A DNA stretch of 47,167 bases. Source: Candidatus Omnitrophota bacterium (GTDB lineage: Bacteria; Omnitrophota; Gorgyraeia; Zapsychrales; Zapsychraceae). The translations under genes were made by a program, and so were the position numbers. Below the pieces are notes generated by a model that was given only the letters and a program-made list of their open reading frames with translations, ran no database searches and had not been told where the DNA came from. Positions 9,001 to 30,000 of the stretch are shown piece after piece (positions within the stretch are counted from its first letter, which is position 1; the number at the start of each line of letters is the position of its first letter). The stretch is from contig JAJDCB010000011.1 in NCBI GenBank assembly GCA_029261065.1, forward strand, positions 1 to 47,167, in the 5' to 3' direction.

Positions 9001-12000
9001 CGAAGATAGATACACCTTCTTCAAACACATTGTCTACGAATTGTTAAGTGATAAATATAAGGTCGAACTCTACATTGAGACTATTGAAACGTTAAAAGAA
9101 GGAGTCAAACGGGAGGACAGACGACTGATCTATAATATCCTTAATTTCTTAGGTCTTAAAGATATCGCCAATGACGCCGAATACCAACAAATTGATATTC
9201 TAGAATTAGCTAAAATCCTTTTATCCATTGAAGCTTTTACCGCCATTATTCCAACGGACGAACCAGTCTCCAGGAAAAATATAGATATTAAGAAGGCTGT
9301 TCGATACTACGAGAAAAATTACCCAAATATCATAAAAAACTTAGCTGAAACTTCCAAAGTCAAAAAACAATTAACAATCTATCAAACACATATGGGCAAT
9401 GCTCCTCCTGAAGGAAACATTAATGAATTAAAACAAAAGTTATCGACACTCGCCTATGATCTTGCGGAAAATCTTTCATCTGAAAATATTCGTATATCTT
9501 CTTCCCCAGTATTTGTCTCACTTCTTGTGAAGACATTAGCTGCAACGATGTCCTCTCCGTTAAATCAAATAAATATGAATGTTATATTCTATAAAATTTT
9601 GTTCAATGATTTTCCTTTGGGTGGTTTGATTAAGGGGATGTATAGTCCAGGAAGTGGATTATTAAATTTTGGTTTGGAGTATCTTTCAGGAACATGGATA
9701 GTTCTTATTTTTGCGGTTTCAATCGTAGTGTTGTGGACAGTGTATTGGCAGTTTCAGCTTTTCTCTAAGAAAGCAGTAGCCGCTCAGCAATTTAAACAAT
9801 TAGCCCAGATTATATCTGAAAAATATGCACAACATAAAAAGGATGGAACTAAACGTGCATTTATTGTGCTTATGATAGGAGAGTCAGGTTCCGGAAAGAC
9901 AACGTTAAGCCGTATTCTTAAAGAACACATAGAGGGTCAAGGTCTTAAAGCGACTCTCTTCAATGAGCTTGACGATTATAAGGATGTCACGAGTGATACT
10001 ATTTTATCGAAACAAAAGAGCTCTCCAGATGTTTTAATTCGTGAAGCAGTCGCACGTATGCCAGAAGATATGGATCGGACGGATGTCTATGTTGTTTTAG
10101 GAGCTGAGGGTAACATACGATTCTTCCGAAAGGGTCAAGAATTTGATAGAACAAACCAATATATTAATGAAGAAGACTTATTACTTTTGATTAATGCAGA
10201 GATATCTCCCTCACATGACAAATACCCAATTGACTTATGGATAGATACAACTAACGTAACAATAGCTAAAACTCGAGCACAAATTAAGAAAAATCTACAT
10301 TTACCATCGTCCTCATCTACTGATGTTCTGTCAAGTTCACCTATCTTTAATTTTACATCTAAAGTCATTCGCACCCCAGTAACCCTACCAGCTCACGCGC
10401 CAAATAAGAAAGATGAAATGCCTAGCGAGAGGCAGACTGAGGTTGTTGTGGATTTACTTGGAGGAAGAATGCTGTTAGACATTTACGATATAGAAATATC
10501 CGAATTATGGATAAGCCCGAGCTTAACGACTTTAGCGGAAATTAGGTATGGAAGATTATTTGTCCATCCTATCATTTTCGATACGTCCCAAAGAGGGCCA
10601 CCCGCTGATCAAATACGAATATTTTTTGACTACCTTTTCCGTTTTCTGACTGACGCACCCGGAGACCAACTTACATCCATTCTCAATACGTATCTACCTA
10701 TGTCTGAAAACAAAGATGCCCATATCGAATTTCTGCTCACCAATAAAATTGGTTTAATGGCTGATACTAATTGGTTCAGGTTTGTGGCTTATAACATATC
10801 CTATCCTGATAGTTTAATAATTAGGATGCACCTTCCCATCCAAGTTGTAATGTCTCTCATAGGTACGGCTGTTGTACTCTATGCCGGCGCAAATATTGCT
10901 ACCGATACACATGTATGGAAAATCATCAGCGCGATAGCTGCAGTGCTCATACTAGTATTTGGAGTATTTGCCGCCCCTCTATACCAGGAAAAACGAAAAG
11001 TTAACAGCGGCATTAATTACACGCAAATCCTATTGCGATATAGCAGACAGGTAATGGATTATAAACATTCAAAGTTCTTTAAAGAGAAAGCCATCCGAGA
11101 GATATTACACGACATAACCTTAATAAAATTAAAAATGCATAATCTAGCAGGATTATATAAAACCAAAAAATTAAGAAGAACACTTCAGAAGGTGGAAGAA
11201 ATTGAAATAGAATTAGAAAAGGAAGAATATTCCAACTTTGCCAATTCACCGCTTATCGAATTTGTAGGTATTACGTTACTTGCAATCGGTGCAATTATTT
11301 TATTTTTCTGGCATCGCCATCTTCACGAAGAAGAAATGTCTAAAATACGTAAGGAAAGTCTAGAGATCAGAGAAGAAACCGAAAAAATTAAATCCTCTAC
11401 CCAACGAGACAGAATAAATGCAGCCCTGGGTTCAGCAAACACGAAATTGAAAATCATTGAAGATACAATTCGTTATTTTTCAATAATCAAGACGGAGGAG
11501 GACATTGAAGAAGACATATCGGACTTACTAAACAAAACATTAAAACGAATAAAAGAAGTATGGAAATTGAAAGATCAAGAGATTCATGAACTGACGGAAC
11601 GCACATTAATGAATATTAACGAACTTCTGAAAGTATTAATCGAATTAGAAAGAAAAATTCCTCAAAATCTAATCATAAGAGACTACATCTCACAAGTTCT
11701 TCGATTTATTATTACACATCTTTATTCAAAAGAAAATCTTGGGGCATTAGCATCAAGATCTTCTGATATATCAGATCTGTTAAAGAAACTTTTAGAAGAG
11801 AAAACATACTCAGAAGATACTCAAAGATTAATACATTTGGGCATAGAGTTTCGTAAGGTGTTAGCCATAAGCGATATTAGCACTTCTTCTTCTCTATTAA
11901 GCTCACGGGTTCGGCAACGGGTTTATCATGCTCTTATTTCAGCTGTTTCGCTGTTGTTGTATATCATTGTTCGATTTGTTCATACATACGATTTTAATCC

Positions 12001-15000
12001 ACAAACAATAAGGGATATTGTTCTTCAAACAACTCAGCGGGTCGGGACGAGGTTTAAGTTTGCTGTTAAGAGTGCACATCTTAATATTTATTATCCACGG
12101 GCTGTTTCTAAGCCGGCTCATGATAAGGCTGTCGCTAATTATGGAGAAAAGGATATTGTTACAATTGATGCGAAGTTGGTGAATGGGCGATACGAATTGC
12201 CGAAAAAAATTGAGTACAAGCCTGAACATATAGAAATAATTCAAAAACAATTAGACGAAATAGTTGAGTTTGTGACACGTCCAGATCCTTCTTTAGAAGA
12301 TGGAAAATTATCAGCATTTGATTCTGAAGTTAATCCTAGAGCTCCAACACATATCACTATAATCATAACCACAGATCCTGATCGATTAGGGAGAGACAAC
12401 AAAGGTCTTGTAAACCTTCATGCAACAAATCGAAAAGCTCGCCCCGATCCAAAGCTTTCCCCATATGCGTTTTTTATTCATCCCGGCCTTTTTGAATTAA
12501 ACATATTTTTTGTATTCAATGCTTTCTATGAGAATCTTATAGTTCGATTTATAAAAGGAATTAAAGATGATGACACTGTAGATCGCATCGCATCCAGAGC
12601 ACATGCCCAAAAAGGCTATTTAATATGGCGGATGTGGGAAACTACGATGAGGGTTGCATTGAATAAAGGAGCTATTACACCAAAGCAGGCAAAGATTTAC
12701 TCTGTATTAGTACGAACTTTTCTATTTATTTTTGTGACAACCGCATTCGTTCCAGGATTAGGAATTATCCCTAGATACATCATACTAATATTATTTAAAT
12801 TACGACATCCAAGTCTCCCAATATTTGTAGCCTTATTATTTGTATGGATACCAAAAGTTGGTGGCCCAATAAGTATCCCTTATCAGGTTTTTTATCTCAT
12901 GGGTGGAGAAGATTATACTATTCATCGATTATGGAAGGCTAGGAAAGTCAATGCAAAGCTCGAAGAAAGTATAGAAGAGTCTTATTTATCCATGGAAGAA
13001 AAGAATATTGAACTGTTCCCTTATTCTGTAGATATAGCCAACATGATTCTTCATTTTCAGTACACATCGACCGAATTTATGACTAAGGGAATTTCAAAGA
13101 AGGCTGCATTTGTTAAAGAAATAATTTATTCAGTCATCGATATAATTCATAGTTTCCGAAATCCTTATATGCGCGAAGGAATACCAAGAAAAGTCGCAGC
13201 AATCAAAGAACTGATACATAGCAATCGAAATCTCTTTACGCACGAAGGAACGCAAAAGAAGGCATTATCCATCAAAGACCTAGCGCATGCGATTGTCGAC
13301 CTAACTCTTAGTTTTCGAAATCCTTTTACGCATGAAGGAATACTCAAAGTTGAAAGTTCAAGGCTTAACGAAGAAACGCTTCTACATTATCTAGAAACAG
13401 AAACACCCATATTGTTAGTCGATTCCCCGAAAGCTATTAAACTCATCGCTAGATTTATTGCCGGTATCCGTGGAAAAGAATACCAAAACGGTATTAAATA
13501 TATTTACGTACTTTACATTAAAAGGTTTACAAGGTACGTCGAAAGACACAACAGAATGCCACCGGCCAAACAAGTTATTGTGAAGTTAAGTAATTTCTTG
13601 AAATCATCTGGTAAAAATAGTGAGCATCCAAAGGGTAGAAGTCGTGTCCATTTGAAAGGAAAGCAAAGGCGTAGTTCTTCTCCAGCGAAAGATGATGTTG
13701 ATTCATCAGGTATCATACAAAATTCCTATCATGAGTTGAACTGGCATGATGGGCCAAATTCTGGCGAACAACATATTATTATTCCAGTAGGTCCAATTGA
13801 GAAATTTATTTTTGTACACGCTAATCGCCAAACTGTCAGAGGGATAGATACTTCTGTTCATGGATATATTCAATCACCCCATCCACTTCCACCCATTGGG
13901 TACGCAGGATTTAGAACTATAGGAAGTAAAAGCGTAATGGATATGTCGTTACCTGGAAAACTATTCGGTGTAGCATTAACTGTTAACCTGCTTTATCGAT
14001 CAAGAAATATTGGGCAGATACTATTGAATCTTTCGCTCCAAAAGGCCAGAGAATTAGGGTCGAAAACATTTGAAGTGTATATAGTAAATAACAGGATGGG
14101 GCCAAGTGTTTACGACAAGGCAATATTTCAAACGTTAAATACGGATGAATTTAGTGAAACGCGCACTTATGATTTAACCCAAGTTGGTAGCTATAAAGTT
14201 CCTACAATAAAATTTGCAGATAACAATACGCAACACGCTTTGGAAAGTTATTTTTCAGAAAATCCTATTGAATCCCAATTTGTCGAGAAAGCTAAATTAG
14301 TTTACGCAGGGAAGTTGGTTTACAAATATGGCCGATGGAAATCTAAGACGTCTTCTCCATTTTCGCCTCCGGATGATAGTTCAAATCGTTATGATGTGAG
14401 TATTCAGAAGGTTTCTATAGATACAAATCTCAACCCATTTGGGGTGCATGTTAGATTTGATTACCAATTAAATATTAGTATCTTCAATCTTGATATCAGT
14501 ATTACCATTGAGAACGGTATTGTTTCTTATGTGGCGTATGCAGATTCAGAAGAGGACGCTTTTTCTGCCAATGCTGACTTTGAGATCAATCAAGAGATTG
14601 AAGTGCATATCAATGAACTATTGGAAAGACCATTTGGAACCATTACTGTCATAGAGGGACAAGCCAATAGTTATCTTGCTGTCATTGAGGAATTTAATGG
14701 AGCAACCATTACAATACTTATACCACGCTTAAACGCAGAAGGCTCAAGCCCATTTATTAACGCAAAACAAAGGGTTACATTTGATACTAGTAGTATGGAT
14801 ATCCTCGCTGAAAAAGTATCATCTGCTTTATTTAGTTCGACTAAATTAGAAATGGCTTCACGTTTTGAACGCGAGTTTGAAACTATTAAAAGGGTTTTGG
14901 CCGATCGTTCTAATGAAATAATTGAACGTATTTTAAGACAAGATAACTCCGTGCATAACTGGGCTGAGCAAGTACTAAAGCAGCAAGCTAACCAACTGTT

Positions 15001-18000: not shown

Positions 18001-21000
18001 AACATATGAAACATTACATGGACGATCAATGGGATCTTTAGCGAGTAGAGAAGACTTTGAGCATCAAAGAGCAATTTCTTATGCAGCAAAGGGAGCAGGG
18101 CTATCCAAAAACCCACGTTGGCGATCTGATAAAAGAAGTAAGTTGACATTAAGACTTTTTGGCGGGGAACTTGATGAGGTCGCAATACATAATGGTTATA
18201 TTGGAAAAGTTTTAAGAGATATAGTTGTGACAGCACGAGAAGCCAAGGATCCTTTAACATTATTACTGGATAAAGGGTGGGAACCGTTTTTAGTTCCTCT
18301 TATGGATGTTCAGTATGTCAAAGGAGTTCTCCTTAATAAAACTAAAGATCAGCTTTTATCTGTTGATGCGCATACGATGTTTAAGAAGTTTGGAGTCTCA
18401 CAAGATTTAGAGGAACAACAGGTCGTTTCGTTTTATGCGATCGTAGGAGGAGTTAACACAAGATTGGAGGGAGAAGGATTAATAGACCGGAGCCTTTTGG
18501 AGCTTCATGCAACGTTAGCCTCTTATGGTATATTTCAGGTTGCCAGTCATTATCCAATTATTTTAGTTAAGGCTGTTAAAAGATTAGCATTCCAAATAGG
18601 ATCCATGCATCACTACTATAATGGAACTTTTACATCCAGAATTATAAGGCGTAATGCTATTAGTGCCGTACAAGCAGTTAATGTCACGGAAAGTGCCAAT
18701 ATCGTGGACAATGAAACGTTTGCTGCTGGCGCGACAGATACTCGCAAAGAACAACGCCGAAGACTTCAATTGCAAGGTATCGATTTAAGATTAGGCGTAG
18801 ACATTATTAGAATTTTGGCTGAACGGGTAGCAGGTCTTGATCCAATAGATTACAAGGAACACTTTGATTTAGGCATTAGTGTATTTTTTGATTTATTAGA
18901 AATACAACGAGATTGGATTATAGGATCTCGTCCAGATTTAGCCATTGATATAGAAAACGTAAAAGCCCTAAATCGAAAAGCCCGGAAGATACAGAGTCAA
19001 ATTCTTAAAGAACAATATACGTCCTCTCCTATGCACACGCTAACAAAGCAAAAAGTTTTCTTGATAGGGGATATGCATCAATTTAAAGATGATCAAATAG
19101 AGAGCTATTATCGTAGTGTCGCTGCAGAAATTTTACAGGATGAATTTCCTTATCAAATAAGTGATGCACAGGTTCAGGTCATTACAACACAACAAATGCA
19201 ACGTAAGTTTTTAGCAGAAATAGATGATATGAATTTTGAAACGGCAGGCAGTCCTCTAAGACCAGTGTCTTCCCTAGCCCCCGAAAGTTCTCAGATTAGA
19301 CAGGTGAATCAAATAGAAGAGGAGCGTAAGCATTCTTCCAGTCCAACTAATGCCAATAGAGAAAACCGTCTGGGTGCTCTATTATTTAGACTCCTCGGTC
19401 ATCCTCTCCATCAACCACATACGGATCATGGTAAGGTAGCCGATGCCCTTGCGTTGCGCAATAATTTTAAGGCGTTGAATTTGATCCTCTTCGAGACGCA
19501 TGGAGATGAGGCGTTTTTTGGGCTTAGGGAATTTGACGTTTTTGACTTCTTTAAGAGCTTCATCGTACTCGACAAGCGAGTGAGTCTCCCAGAAGCGAGC
19601 CTCTTCCATCTCAGTACGGAACTTAGGAATGTGTTTACTTTTCTTTTGCATAGTCTATCTCCTCCAGTATCTTTGCTCATCCCAATAAAAATGAGTGAAT
19701 CTCAAAGGATGACTCCTTCCTTGAAAGTATATATGTATATACAAAAGATGTCAAGAAGGGCTGTGATGTTTGGTAAGATTTTGACAGCTTTTAGGGTTAA
19801 AAAGATTGATTTGACGAAAATGAAGAGGGCAGGAGAAAAGCGGGGATATTTCACTTTCTTAAAACGTGACTATATCGCAGATTTAAAAATTGGTCAAGAA
19901 GATGTTATAGGAAGGAAAACAGCAGGCAGTCCACTAAAACCAGTTGTATCTCTAAAAGAGCACTTCCGATACTACTACGATTTTATTCAACAGTATTCCA
20001 AGCCAAGAAAGCAAACCAATAGATCTCCATTTGATTTTATGATCACAACAGATCCTTATTACGCTGCTGAAGATCATATTGCAAACAGAGGTGGTTTATT
20101 AATTGCAAGTGGGTGGGGTGGACAAACGGAAAGTGTGGCTACTGTTATGAAAGCGGAGCAGCTCTTAGAGTTAGATGATAATCCATGGATCCCATTGGTT
20201 CGCATGCCTATAAACGGAGCTCTAACATTATTGTCTTCCAATCGGATTGAATTTATATCGCGTTATGCGGGTGTTCCTGTTGATGCCTATACCGTTGATC
20301 GGTTACAACAAAGCAGTATGGAAACGATTAATGATTATTTTGTCAGAGAACAAATGTTTAACGATAAGTTCTTTCAAGATGTATGGTTGATGATCGAAGA
20401 GGCGTTCTCCAAAGAAGCTTATCCTAAAGCTCAACAGATGTGGCAATCAACGCGAAGGAATGGACGAGGGTTTATTTTGAGTTATTTACGAAGTTATTTA
20501 GAGCCTATGATTAAAGCAGAGGAGTTTTCTAAATCATCTTGGTTATCATCTGAAGAGAACTATCAACATATGCGCTCCCTATGGCTTGAGAAAAAGGTAT
20601 TTGCTCAATACGGAAACTGGGAATTAGAAGATCCAAAACGTTTAGACCAATTTAAGTCAAAAGCCTCAGTGGTCTTTACATCTAATGTCATGTCACACGT
20701 TATTTCAAATAGAGAAAAGTTGATAGAAAATATATGGTTCTTTAGCAATGAAAATACTTTAGTCGTTGATATGGGCATTGGCATTCAACTCTATCGTGCA
20801 GCTGATAGCATTCCAGCTTTATTAGACGAAATAAACATGATACGAGAAAACAATACAGTACCTGCTCAACAAACCCAGTCTGCTAGTCCGCTTGATTATA
20901 GTTTAAGAGAACAATACATTAATCAACCAAATTTTTCGGGAGAGGTATTTATTCTGACGCCTGAAAACATTAATTTTGTAACAGACAATTCTCCAACATA

Positions 21001-27000: not shown

Positions 27001-30000
27001 ATTGTTAGTCGGGCAAAAGCGATATGAAGAATATAAAAAACGTGTCATGATTCCAGACCTTATGGCGAAAAATGACGCTGCCCTTGTTGAGTTAAAGAGG
27101 ATTCTTCCTCTTGGCATTGAGGAAACAACGGATAGGATGTTGACGTTACAACTTATTGCAGGGGTAGCTTTCCCTCAAAATAGAGGCGGAAGGGCCTTTG
27201 TCCCGCCAAATGAATTTATTACTGTTGCCAACAATCCAAGTATCGACACAAGAAGTTATCTTGCCATTAATCATTTATATGAGCTCATTGCAGATATTGA
27301 AAGTGCTAAAAGTCCACGAATTATATTTCTCCTTGATGATGTTGGAGAAGCCATTTTTGATTTGCTGTTTATTCAAACATTGCTGCTTCAGCATCCTAGG
27401 CTGAAGGTCACTATTTGGGTTAATCGGTTTGCGGTTGAGAATAATATGTGGACCGCGGAATTATTACGTGTACTGGATGATTCTTATTTCTTAAAGCTTA
27501 AACAATCTCTATATGATAATCGGGTCTCTATTTACCAAACGAATACGGCTCTTTTAGCCCCGGATCCTCGATTTATTAGTGAAAAATCATCGCGTAGTTT
27601 GGAGAGCGCCACTGCTGTAGTCATCAAGGGAGCAGCCACTTTTGAAACGACCCAAATCCCAAGTGCAAATACGTATTACGGCTTTGCCAATTATCATCAA
27701 GCCACGAGTGAAGTTACGGGTATTCCGCCTGGTACATTAAAGGGAGTCTTCGTTCATGTTCCGCCTGGTCAAATCGGATACGAATATCTTCCACAGGAGA
27801 AAAAGTTTATAACAACTCTCGATAAAATAACAGGTGACATAAAGCATTCAAGTTCGCCACTGGATGAGGGCGAGAGAAACAAATCTAAATGGAAGCTAAC
27901 ACTTACCACGCAAGCCTTACTCCTCACTTCAATTATGGCTACACCATTCTCCATCTTTCATCACACACGCACCTTAGATGATACTGTTCAATTGGGCATC
28001 TTAGTTCTTATCTCAACTGTATATTTAGGGGGATCGTTATTAACACTTTTGACGGCTTCTGTTGATCGTATGCTTAAGCGTTACAAAAATGTATATGTTG
28101 TTGATGGTCAAGAAAATGAAACAATTAAAGAGAATATTCGTAACCAAGCCAAAGCTCATATTAGATTAGAGGCGATGAAGGGATTTTGGGCTGTGGTGTT
28201 AATGTCAATTGGGATTGCTGGCGTTATTGTTGGAGGGGCGGCCTCCACATGGTATTACTTGCCTATTTCAGTTGCTGGAGTTCTGCTTCGTTTAACGGGA
28301 CGGCTTATGCACAGTGAGATTGGTGAGCTTGTGATGCGAAATATTTTACCAGGTTTTAAAGTTAATCTTAATGTTGAGAAGATCCAACGTTTTGGTCCAG
28401 GTGTTCGGTGGCTTGGTAATATCATCATCATTGCAGATATGATTATTTGGGAATTAGACAAACCAGGAATACAAGTCCTTGCTTACTTTTTATTTATGAT
28501 TCTTGATATCGGATTAACACAGTGGGGACTGACACTTAAAAAAGTTCAAAGAAAACTTCGCATATTTTTAGAGGTTGTTGGCACCATCTCAACACTCGTA
28601 GGCCTTCAATTCTTGATCCTTCTAGATTTTATCTTCAACTGGAAGCGGATCATGACATTAGACACGATTGAATTCGCCGTTGGTCTTATTGTCTTTATAT
28701 CAATATATTGGAAGATCAAAGGCGAAGTTAAAGCCGACTTAGTTGATTCAGAGAATTCAGAAAAGCAATCAGATAAGACATCGGAGTCGTCAGATGAAAA
28801 CGAAAAACCACATACATCTGCGTCACCGTTGACACCCACACATCGAATAAGAGAAAACACTTCTTGGAACAACACGGACTACAGAAATCTCGCTGACTTG
28901 CCTTCGTTTTTCATGCATCGTGGTGTATCTATCGCAACATATATTTTGGGGGCACGTTATGGTGAATTTGAAAAGGATTATCAATTATTTACAGGATTAA
29001 GAAATGTAAGTCCTTACCTATTAGAATCAGCTGTTCATGAGACATTGCAGATCTATCTGTTGTTAAGGGAAGCCAATAGTCAAAACAGGTATTTGATATC
29101 AACGGATTTAATCAAAGCAAATAGTCGTTTAACTACGAGCAGAAGCGTAATAACGGAGGAACATATTCTCGATCAAGCCATGCGCTGGTTAGAGTTAAAG
29201 GGATTCCCGATGCGAAGAGAGTTTAGAAAGGTTGATGGGCATTGGAGAAATGTTTGGGTTGTACGAGGTTTGATCGCTGAAAGTAATAATATTATTAGTC
29301 CGGATCAATGGCCATCGCGTATTCAAGGAGAGTCGCGAAGAATTACAGCGCAACGTGTTAAAGAAGATATTATGCCGATCTATGGATTAACATTAGAAGA
29401 CATAAAACCAGTTATGGGTAAATCCATACATACTATTAAAAGTCAGCTAAATGATGCTATATCTGAAAGACGTTTATCAAGTGGACACCAAGGAAACACA
29501 GATGCAGCGCATGAGAAGTTGTTAGAGGAGTGGTCACCTGTTTTTGGTTTTGAACCAATTTTCTTAAGAACATATGAGAGCAGGAGGGACGCAAGGGACG
29601 CTTATTTAGAAGTAGTCTCAGAATTAAATATAGGTCAAAGAGCTTCACAGGCCAGAAGAATAGCTGGTTTAAGTCGTATCGCATTAGCGAGAATTCTCGC
29701 ACAAGCCCTTGATCAAACGGATGATACAAGAGTCATTAATACTTATAGGCAAATGATTCTTCGATTAGAAACTAATAAAAAAATGATGGCTACAAGAAAA
29801 ACGCTTCAAGACAATAGAGTTTGGCCACTATTGGCGCAAATTTATGATATGGATGTATTTGAGTTGTTAGTAGGATTCATTCGAGCACGAGTGTTACGAA
29901 AATTAGATTTAGATCAAAGAGTCGACATCCTCATAGCGGCTAAAGGTATGACAGAGGCACAATATCGTACTCAACTTTCTAAACTTATAGATCAAAAAGG

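Follow-up and report, generated by a model that had tools for sequence, protein, structure and literature searches.

An antisense CopG-type antitoxin gene, probably the remainder of a brnT/copG-type cassette, within a giant Omnitrophota coding sequence

How does an apparently complete antitoxin gene come to lie on the opposite strand of a coding sequence that continues, without a stop, for tens of thousands of codons, and does the cell still make use of it? The question is raised by a stretch of 47,167 nucleotides (the window) that opens contig C3 (249,583 bp) in a draft Omnitrophota genome of 2.71 Mb and 36 contigs (G000). The entire window reads as one uninterrupted forward frame (2-47167, plus strand). 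On the contig this frame extends over C3:2-134569, that is, 44,856 codons with zero stops; its 5′ end is open at the contig edge and it accounts for 5% of the genome. Thus, the giant protein does read straight through the antitoxin gene, as proposed in a preliminary description of this DNA. Pfam searches with about 15,000 residues of the giant frame in the window returned two domains only, one of them an ARMT1-like phosphatase domain (PF01937, 1.4e-9) at approximately 27251-27649 on the plus strand. The giant ORFs reported from Omnitrophota/Velamenicoccia are likewise stop-free over tens of thousands of codons, poor in known domains and poorly conserved, the one of V. archaeovorus reaching 39,678 amino acids; they occur in 77 of 116 Velamenicoccia genomes, and the accessible text of that report does not contain the word "toxin" and describes neither nested antisense toxin-antitoxin (TA) cassettes nor the SSP linkers discussed below (PMC10066038).

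The antitoxin gene lies at positions 19382-19651 of the minus strand. It starts with an ATG codon and specifies 89 amino acids, which match the CopG_antitoxin profile PF12441 over its full length (profile positions 1-78 of 79; E=1.4e-17; 64.6 bits for a cut-off of 28). This identifies the product as a member of that family and bears out the complete CopG/RHH antitoxin of the preliminary description. Comparison of the antitoxin profile with the PDB gave no match. The codons of the gene are exactly antiparallel to those of the giant frame, an arrangement designated register -0. Long minus-strand ORFs as such appear chance-like in this register, 17 of 80 codons or more being present where 10.3 are expected; the antitoxin ORF is judged real because of its family, its promoter and the selection acting on it, rather than because of its length. 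Taken together, the sequence data support the existence of a genuine antitoxin gene that lies antisense within a giant coding sequence free of stops.

The gene is preceded by a sigma-70-type promoter, TTGACA-17-TATACT (19726-19754, minus strand), the first hexamer of which starts at 19754 and the second ends at 19726. The promoter agrees with the consensus at 11 of 12 positions and is the best of six sites found in a promoter scan (3.3 expected). A perfect inverted repeat, GTATATA-TG-TATATAC, covers part of the spacer and the -10 motif (19727-19742) and probably represents an operator. Both elements had been reported in the preliminary description, and comparisons with related loci confirm them. 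The 31 nt that comprise promoter and palindrome, TTGACATCTTTTGTATATACATATATACTTT, are identical in a second copy of the cassette (see below) and in L015, a non-nested locus of another family. The sequence TTGACATC followed by TTTGTAT is found again, exactly or to within one base, in further relatives; the -35 motif and the beginning of the spacer are kept in eight further relatives, and the palindrome is nearly conserved in L237 and L240. Since identity or conservation extends to nested and free relatives, promoter and operator must be more than chance occurrences. At the sequence level, the region has the makings of the autoregulatory promoter with operator palindrome that characterizes brnT/copG TA modules, and binding of the antitoxin to it is predicted.

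The second copy of the cassette lies in the same giant ORF, also antisense, at C3:79707-80435, approximately 60 kb from the copy in the window. Its antitoxin gene (C3:79709-79975) encodes a protein 83% identical to the window antitoxin and has a toxin gene upstream, specifying a full BrnT protein (PF04365, 7.1e-13) with weak sequence matches to the PDB toxins 7vd7 and 3u97. Homology to this copy (two blastn blocks, 82% and 79% identity) delimits the whole window cassette to the interval 19383-19898 (minus strand), and both edges fall in the same codon phase in the two copies. Alignment to the intact copy (L002) showed the window cassette to be missing 213 nt of the toxin gene, which amounts to 71 codons, in frame. 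What is left of brnT is a 16-residue ORF starting from a TTG codon, MRFTHFYWDEQRYWRR followed by a stop (19655-19705, minus strand). The GGAGG sequence that serves the antitoxin start is thus present ahead of the gene, as previously described, but instead of forming part of a free-standing leader it sits in the last codons of the toxin remnant. Type II modules of the brnT/copG kind are defined by a toxin gene that immediately precedes the antitoxin gene; it is intact in the second copy and represented by a remnant only in the window. Judging from this alignment, the window contains a brnT-type (brnT/copG, type II) module from which the toxin has been deleted.

How can a gene be accommodated opposite a frame that never stops? 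Because codons in register -0 are exactly antiparallel, a stop in the giant frame can arise only from the antitoxin codons TTA, CTA or TCA, all of which have synonyms. These three codons make up 5.7% of the codons in ordinary genes of contig C3. In 13 nested register-0 genes, none of the 144 leucine and serine codons belongs to the avoided type; free relatives contain 239 avoided codons in 6821, and genes nested in other registers 43 in 908. A larger sample is provided by the DUF433 family, where 36 nested register-0 genes have no avoided codon among 392 leucine and serine codons (about 76 expected), as opposed to 122 of 622 in free copies. The count is also zero for 10 nested CopG genes (0/149). 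Dynamic programming showed that in register -0 synonymous choice alone suffices, whatever the protein, to keep the other strand open, and that such choice is insufficient in antisense registers 1 and 2 and in the sense +1 register. The idea that full purging is confined to antisense register -0 proved wrong, the sense +2 register being fully purgeable as well. Ordinary copies of most families have the most stops to remove in sense +2, and for most of these families the fewest stops need purging in antisense registers 0 and 1.

The differences between the two antitoxin copies number 9, 5 and 36 at codon positions 1, 2 and 3, respectively. This corresponds, in the antitoxin frame, to a dN of 0.092, a dS of 1.22 and a dN/dS ratio of about 0.08, which includes the time before the deletion of the toxin, so that the antitoxin could have become a fossil since. 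In the giant frame, the same overlap has a dN of 0.238 and a dS of 0.131. The pattern is general: in 31 pairs of nested antitoxins, including the present one, third positions of the antitoxin are always those with the largest number of changes, and dN exceeds dS in the giant frame of most pairs. Hence both frames are open and the nested one evolves under purifying selection, as befits an antisense nested gene; in the host frame, avoidance of stops is seen alone and constraint on the amino acids is not. In short, the antitoxin is conserved, the giant amino acids opposite to it are unconstrained, and still the giant frame is never stopped. The earlier impression that the segment is functional in both directions thus holds in part: it agrees with the selection on the antitoxin frame, and for the giant protein it must be restricted to the maintenance of an open frame.

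In the preliminary description, the antitoxin gene stood out as the sole minus-strand ORF with a recognizable family. This is true within the window, but farther along the same giant ORF there are at least four more antisense TA modules. They comprise a DUF433 gene (2.7e-23) with a shortened DUF5615 toxin gene, the match covering 46 of 110 positions (C3:58822-59371); a gene for an MqsA-like zinc protein (weak match, 0.0019) with a DUF4258 gene (1.2e-21; C3:73187-73768); the second BrnT/CopG copy (C3:79709-80257; PF12441, 6.6e-16, and BrnT, 7.1e-13); and a PIN_3 gene (2.4e-20) with a small partner that has no family match (C3:80686-81370). All BrnT, PF12441-type (E <1e-5), DUF433, DUF4258 and PIN_3 matches of this genome fall in the giant ORF. 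Within the taxonomic family, antisense nesting was observed for 8 of 12 DUF433, 6 of 30 PIN_3, 1 of 6 DUF4258 and 5 of 30 HicA loci; most BrnT copies are free (2 nested of 27 classed), and none of 30 ParE toxin loci and none of 30 Y1 transposase loci was nested. Nesting is thus a habit of some lineages and not a rule. A survey of 384 genomes from the phylum placed 43 of 95 DUF433 genes inside long ORFs (29 of 57 genomes). All 43 are antisense and none sense, 36 of them in register 0; indeed, every nested TA case counted (DUF433, HicA, PIN, BrnT, CopG) is antisense. When a sequence collection was scanned with the CopG profile, the gene proved to be nested in register 0 in 7 of the 11 records that bear the name Omnitrophota; in other phyla, there was one record named Planctomycetales and otherwise no convincing nested case. 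Such recurrence across Omnitrophota suggests that TA cassettes have adapted to life inside giant genes. In the Planctomycetales bacterium record (L243, SBBM01000013.1), a giant ORF likewise harbours this nested CopG cassette; the record possibly represents a mislabelled Omnitrophota MAG or a transfer. Six nested PIN_3 genes (L082, L083, L084, L093, L094 and L100) are all in antisense register 1 and tyrosine-poor, as this register demands.

Cassettes are found at many unrelated positions of giant genes and have moved between non-homologous giant contexts. Two genomes of one genus have an 815-nt cassette in common (89% identity, no gaps), and no homology was detected between the same two contigs outside of it; lack of flank homology is a weaker sign of movement between distant genomes than within one genus, because giant flanks evolve fast. 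The edges of the 815-nt cassette coincide with a motif of the giant frame, SSP. The giant protein encoded by the window genome has 106 of these motifs (7.9 expected, a 13-fold excess), the ordinary ORFs of contig C3 a single one. Since the 106 motifs are specified by 58 different codings, SSP is conserved as protein and not as DNA; it resembles a site at which modules are linked, or at which a giant of the polyprotein kind is processed. The residue after the motif is almost always L, I, F, M or V. Nested modules lie close to linkers in SSP-bearing giants, and in the window a linker of this type, HSSSPT (19331-19348, plus strand), is found 15 codons from the 3′ end of the antitoxin gene. That nesting requires SSP linkers was considered and rejected, many giant ORFs with nested DUF433 genes having none.

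A repeat search further revealed that the window cassette is bracketed by two copies of a 28-nt direct repeat, coding in the giant frame for the linkers TAGSPLRP (19239-19266, plus strand) and TAGSPLKP (19917-19944, plus strand). These copies, the only two in contig C3, are identical at 25 of 28 positions and lie 678 nt, or 226 codons, apart. Cassette edges coincide with linker-coding direct repeats in several cases. As an insertion mark the 28-nt repeat is suggestive only: when 60 stretches of 1.6 kb were drawn at random from the giant ORF, 5 contained an equally good repeat, and no flanking direct repeat was found around the second copy. The loci compared included no homologues of the window flanks, and hence no empty site, so that the point of insertion is deduced from the second copy together with the flanking repeat. 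In the phylogenetic tree of DUF433, which is poorly resolved, the nested state is clustered (about 12 changes for a mean of 31 after shuffling) and the register is constant in most clades, the five register-2 genes forming a single clade. These features suggest that cassettes, once frame-transparent, spread in that state. A separate, dispersed repeat containing GTGACAGGCACC brackets the DUF433 module (L004:11751-11798 and 12762-12809, around 58.75 and 59.76 kb of C3); its first copy codes for LSSPMS in the giant frame, and related copies lie near 57.57, 72.58 and 75.09 kb of C3.

We consider it probable that the window feature is a brnT/copG-type TA cassette that inserted antisense in a giant Omnitrophota gene and subsequently lost its toxin, and that the antitoxin is likely active. 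According to this scheme, a TA cassette would enter the giant gene in antisense orientation and be purged of TTA, CTA and TCA codons, allowing the giant frame to read through; lineages of frame-transparent cassettes would then move between giant-gene sites. In the window, the in-frame deletion of 71 codons would have eliminated the toxin and produced a self-contained antitoxin gene that brings along a promoter, an operator and a ribosome site. The antitoxin, most likely still made, would repress its own promoter and might also bind and neutralize the intact BrnT encoded some 60 kb downstream. Because the same operator is found at the intact copy, cross-repression combined with BrnT neutralization would be its likeliest present function. 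Losing a cassette with an active toxin would presumably be punished, an addiction that would make cassettes persist and penalize deletions in the giant gene too. The more general proposition, that mobile TA cassettes adapted to coding on both strands have made the giant genes of Omnitrophota their dedicated habitat, where they lie antisense in a fixed register, jump between linkers and lock segments in place, is offered tentatively, as one we would rate at slightly less than an even chance.

The deletion of the toxin in the window, like the shortening of the DUF5615 toxin in another module of the same ORF, could also indicate a decaying fossil whose antitoxin is neither expressed nor needed and whose open frames await disruption. 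We regard this as unlikely, since the antitoxin gene retains an intact ORF and start together with an intact ribosome site, promoter and operator and, at several sites that differ between the copies, it is the window copy that has the outgroup residue; hence, it has not evolved faster than the toxin-bearing copy. An intact promoter and operator placed antisense within a giant gene might alternatively act in cis, the cassette being kept because antisense transcription or operator-bound antitoxin roadblocks or destabilizes the giant mRNA. The antisense orientation of all nested modules would fit such control by convergent transcription; however, it also follows from the economics of reading frames, antisense registers 0 and 1 having the fewest stops in most of these families. 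Moreover, free copies, which face no giant gene on the other strand, possess this promoter and operator too, and the positions taken by cassettes in giant genes are unrelated, all of which makes a role as cis regulator quite unlikely.

Could a TA gene simply happen to be stop-free on its other strand, within a giant ORF that is not under selection? Some free genes do lack stops in register -0 (2 of 25 BrnT, 5 of 52 DUF433). Nevertheless, an unselected ORF would hardly run for 44,856 codons; for the window gene taken alone, the probability calculated on its leucine codons is about 1%, and for the group the absence of the avoided codons from nested DUF433 genes refutes the proposal, genes in other registers using these codons normally. 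Chance thus seems barely credible. The same can be said of a misassembly that joined the cassette to the giant gene, conceivable as this may be in a draft of 36 contigs: the second copy resides in the same ORF, 29 genomes of the phylum have DUF433 genes nested in phase, and independent named records show the arrangement too. Accordingly, neither of two findings that might have undone the preliminary description, a lack of family match or a cassette physically outside the giant gene, was encountered.

With known type II modules made of BrnT/BrnA and CopG_antitoxin (PF04365/PF12441), the cassettes share the toxin-to-antitoxin order, an RHH-type antitoxin and a palindrome over the promoter; free BrnT/CopG copies have the same families and the same promoter sequence. 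The window cassette differs from them in having no toxin, in coding DNA that leaves the opposite frame open, and in its location inside another gene. Sedentary chromosomal integrons also contain TA modules, each driven by a promoter of its own, within a large array that they are thought to stabilize; here, by contrast, the array is a single ORF and the modules are antisense. Pairs of DUF433 (COG2442) with PIN or DUF5615 (vapBC10-like) belong to the same families as those nested here and in 29 genomes, and are treated as ordinary loci in the accessible portions of PMC3834315 and PMC4963859, which make no mention of nesting in giant genes. Antisense overlapping genes and the excludon concept (PMC7154746) likewise involve transcription and coding on opposite strands, but not full nesting, codon purging and recurrent insertion of one functional class. 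We found no account of TA modules lying antisense in giant genes in the open literature, preprints and most subscription journals falling outside this coverage, and priority for the finding is not established.

Complete nesting of a bacterial gene on the opposite strand of another is rare and a matter of dispute. In the present case, one functional class nests antisense dozens of times, and a codon signature that can be measured shows that both frames matter. This constitutes independent evidence for the translation of giant ORFs from end to end, through "junk" segments, and provides a candidate, testable answer to how enormous genes escape deletion. Because gene callers usually drop genes that lie wholly inside longer ones, these programs and TA surveys probably miss many modules in this phylum. 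A scan for coding potential was too noisy to serve as a detector by itself: it caught parts of several nested modules, and membrane-rich segments also scored low. A register -0 ORF at C3:50714-50974 (minus strand; MGIVINIPKILRDKLTEEG...) has higher coding potential than the giant frame; it has no Pfam match and was recognized as DUF1640-like by eye. Finally, a 27.7-kb contig of another genome (G003:C51, L221) contains an ORF of 8721 codons in which no fewer than four TA modules lie antisense. Two of them are DUF433 modules, one is a HicA module and one, as identified by eye, a MazF/PemK-like pair at 11493-12089.
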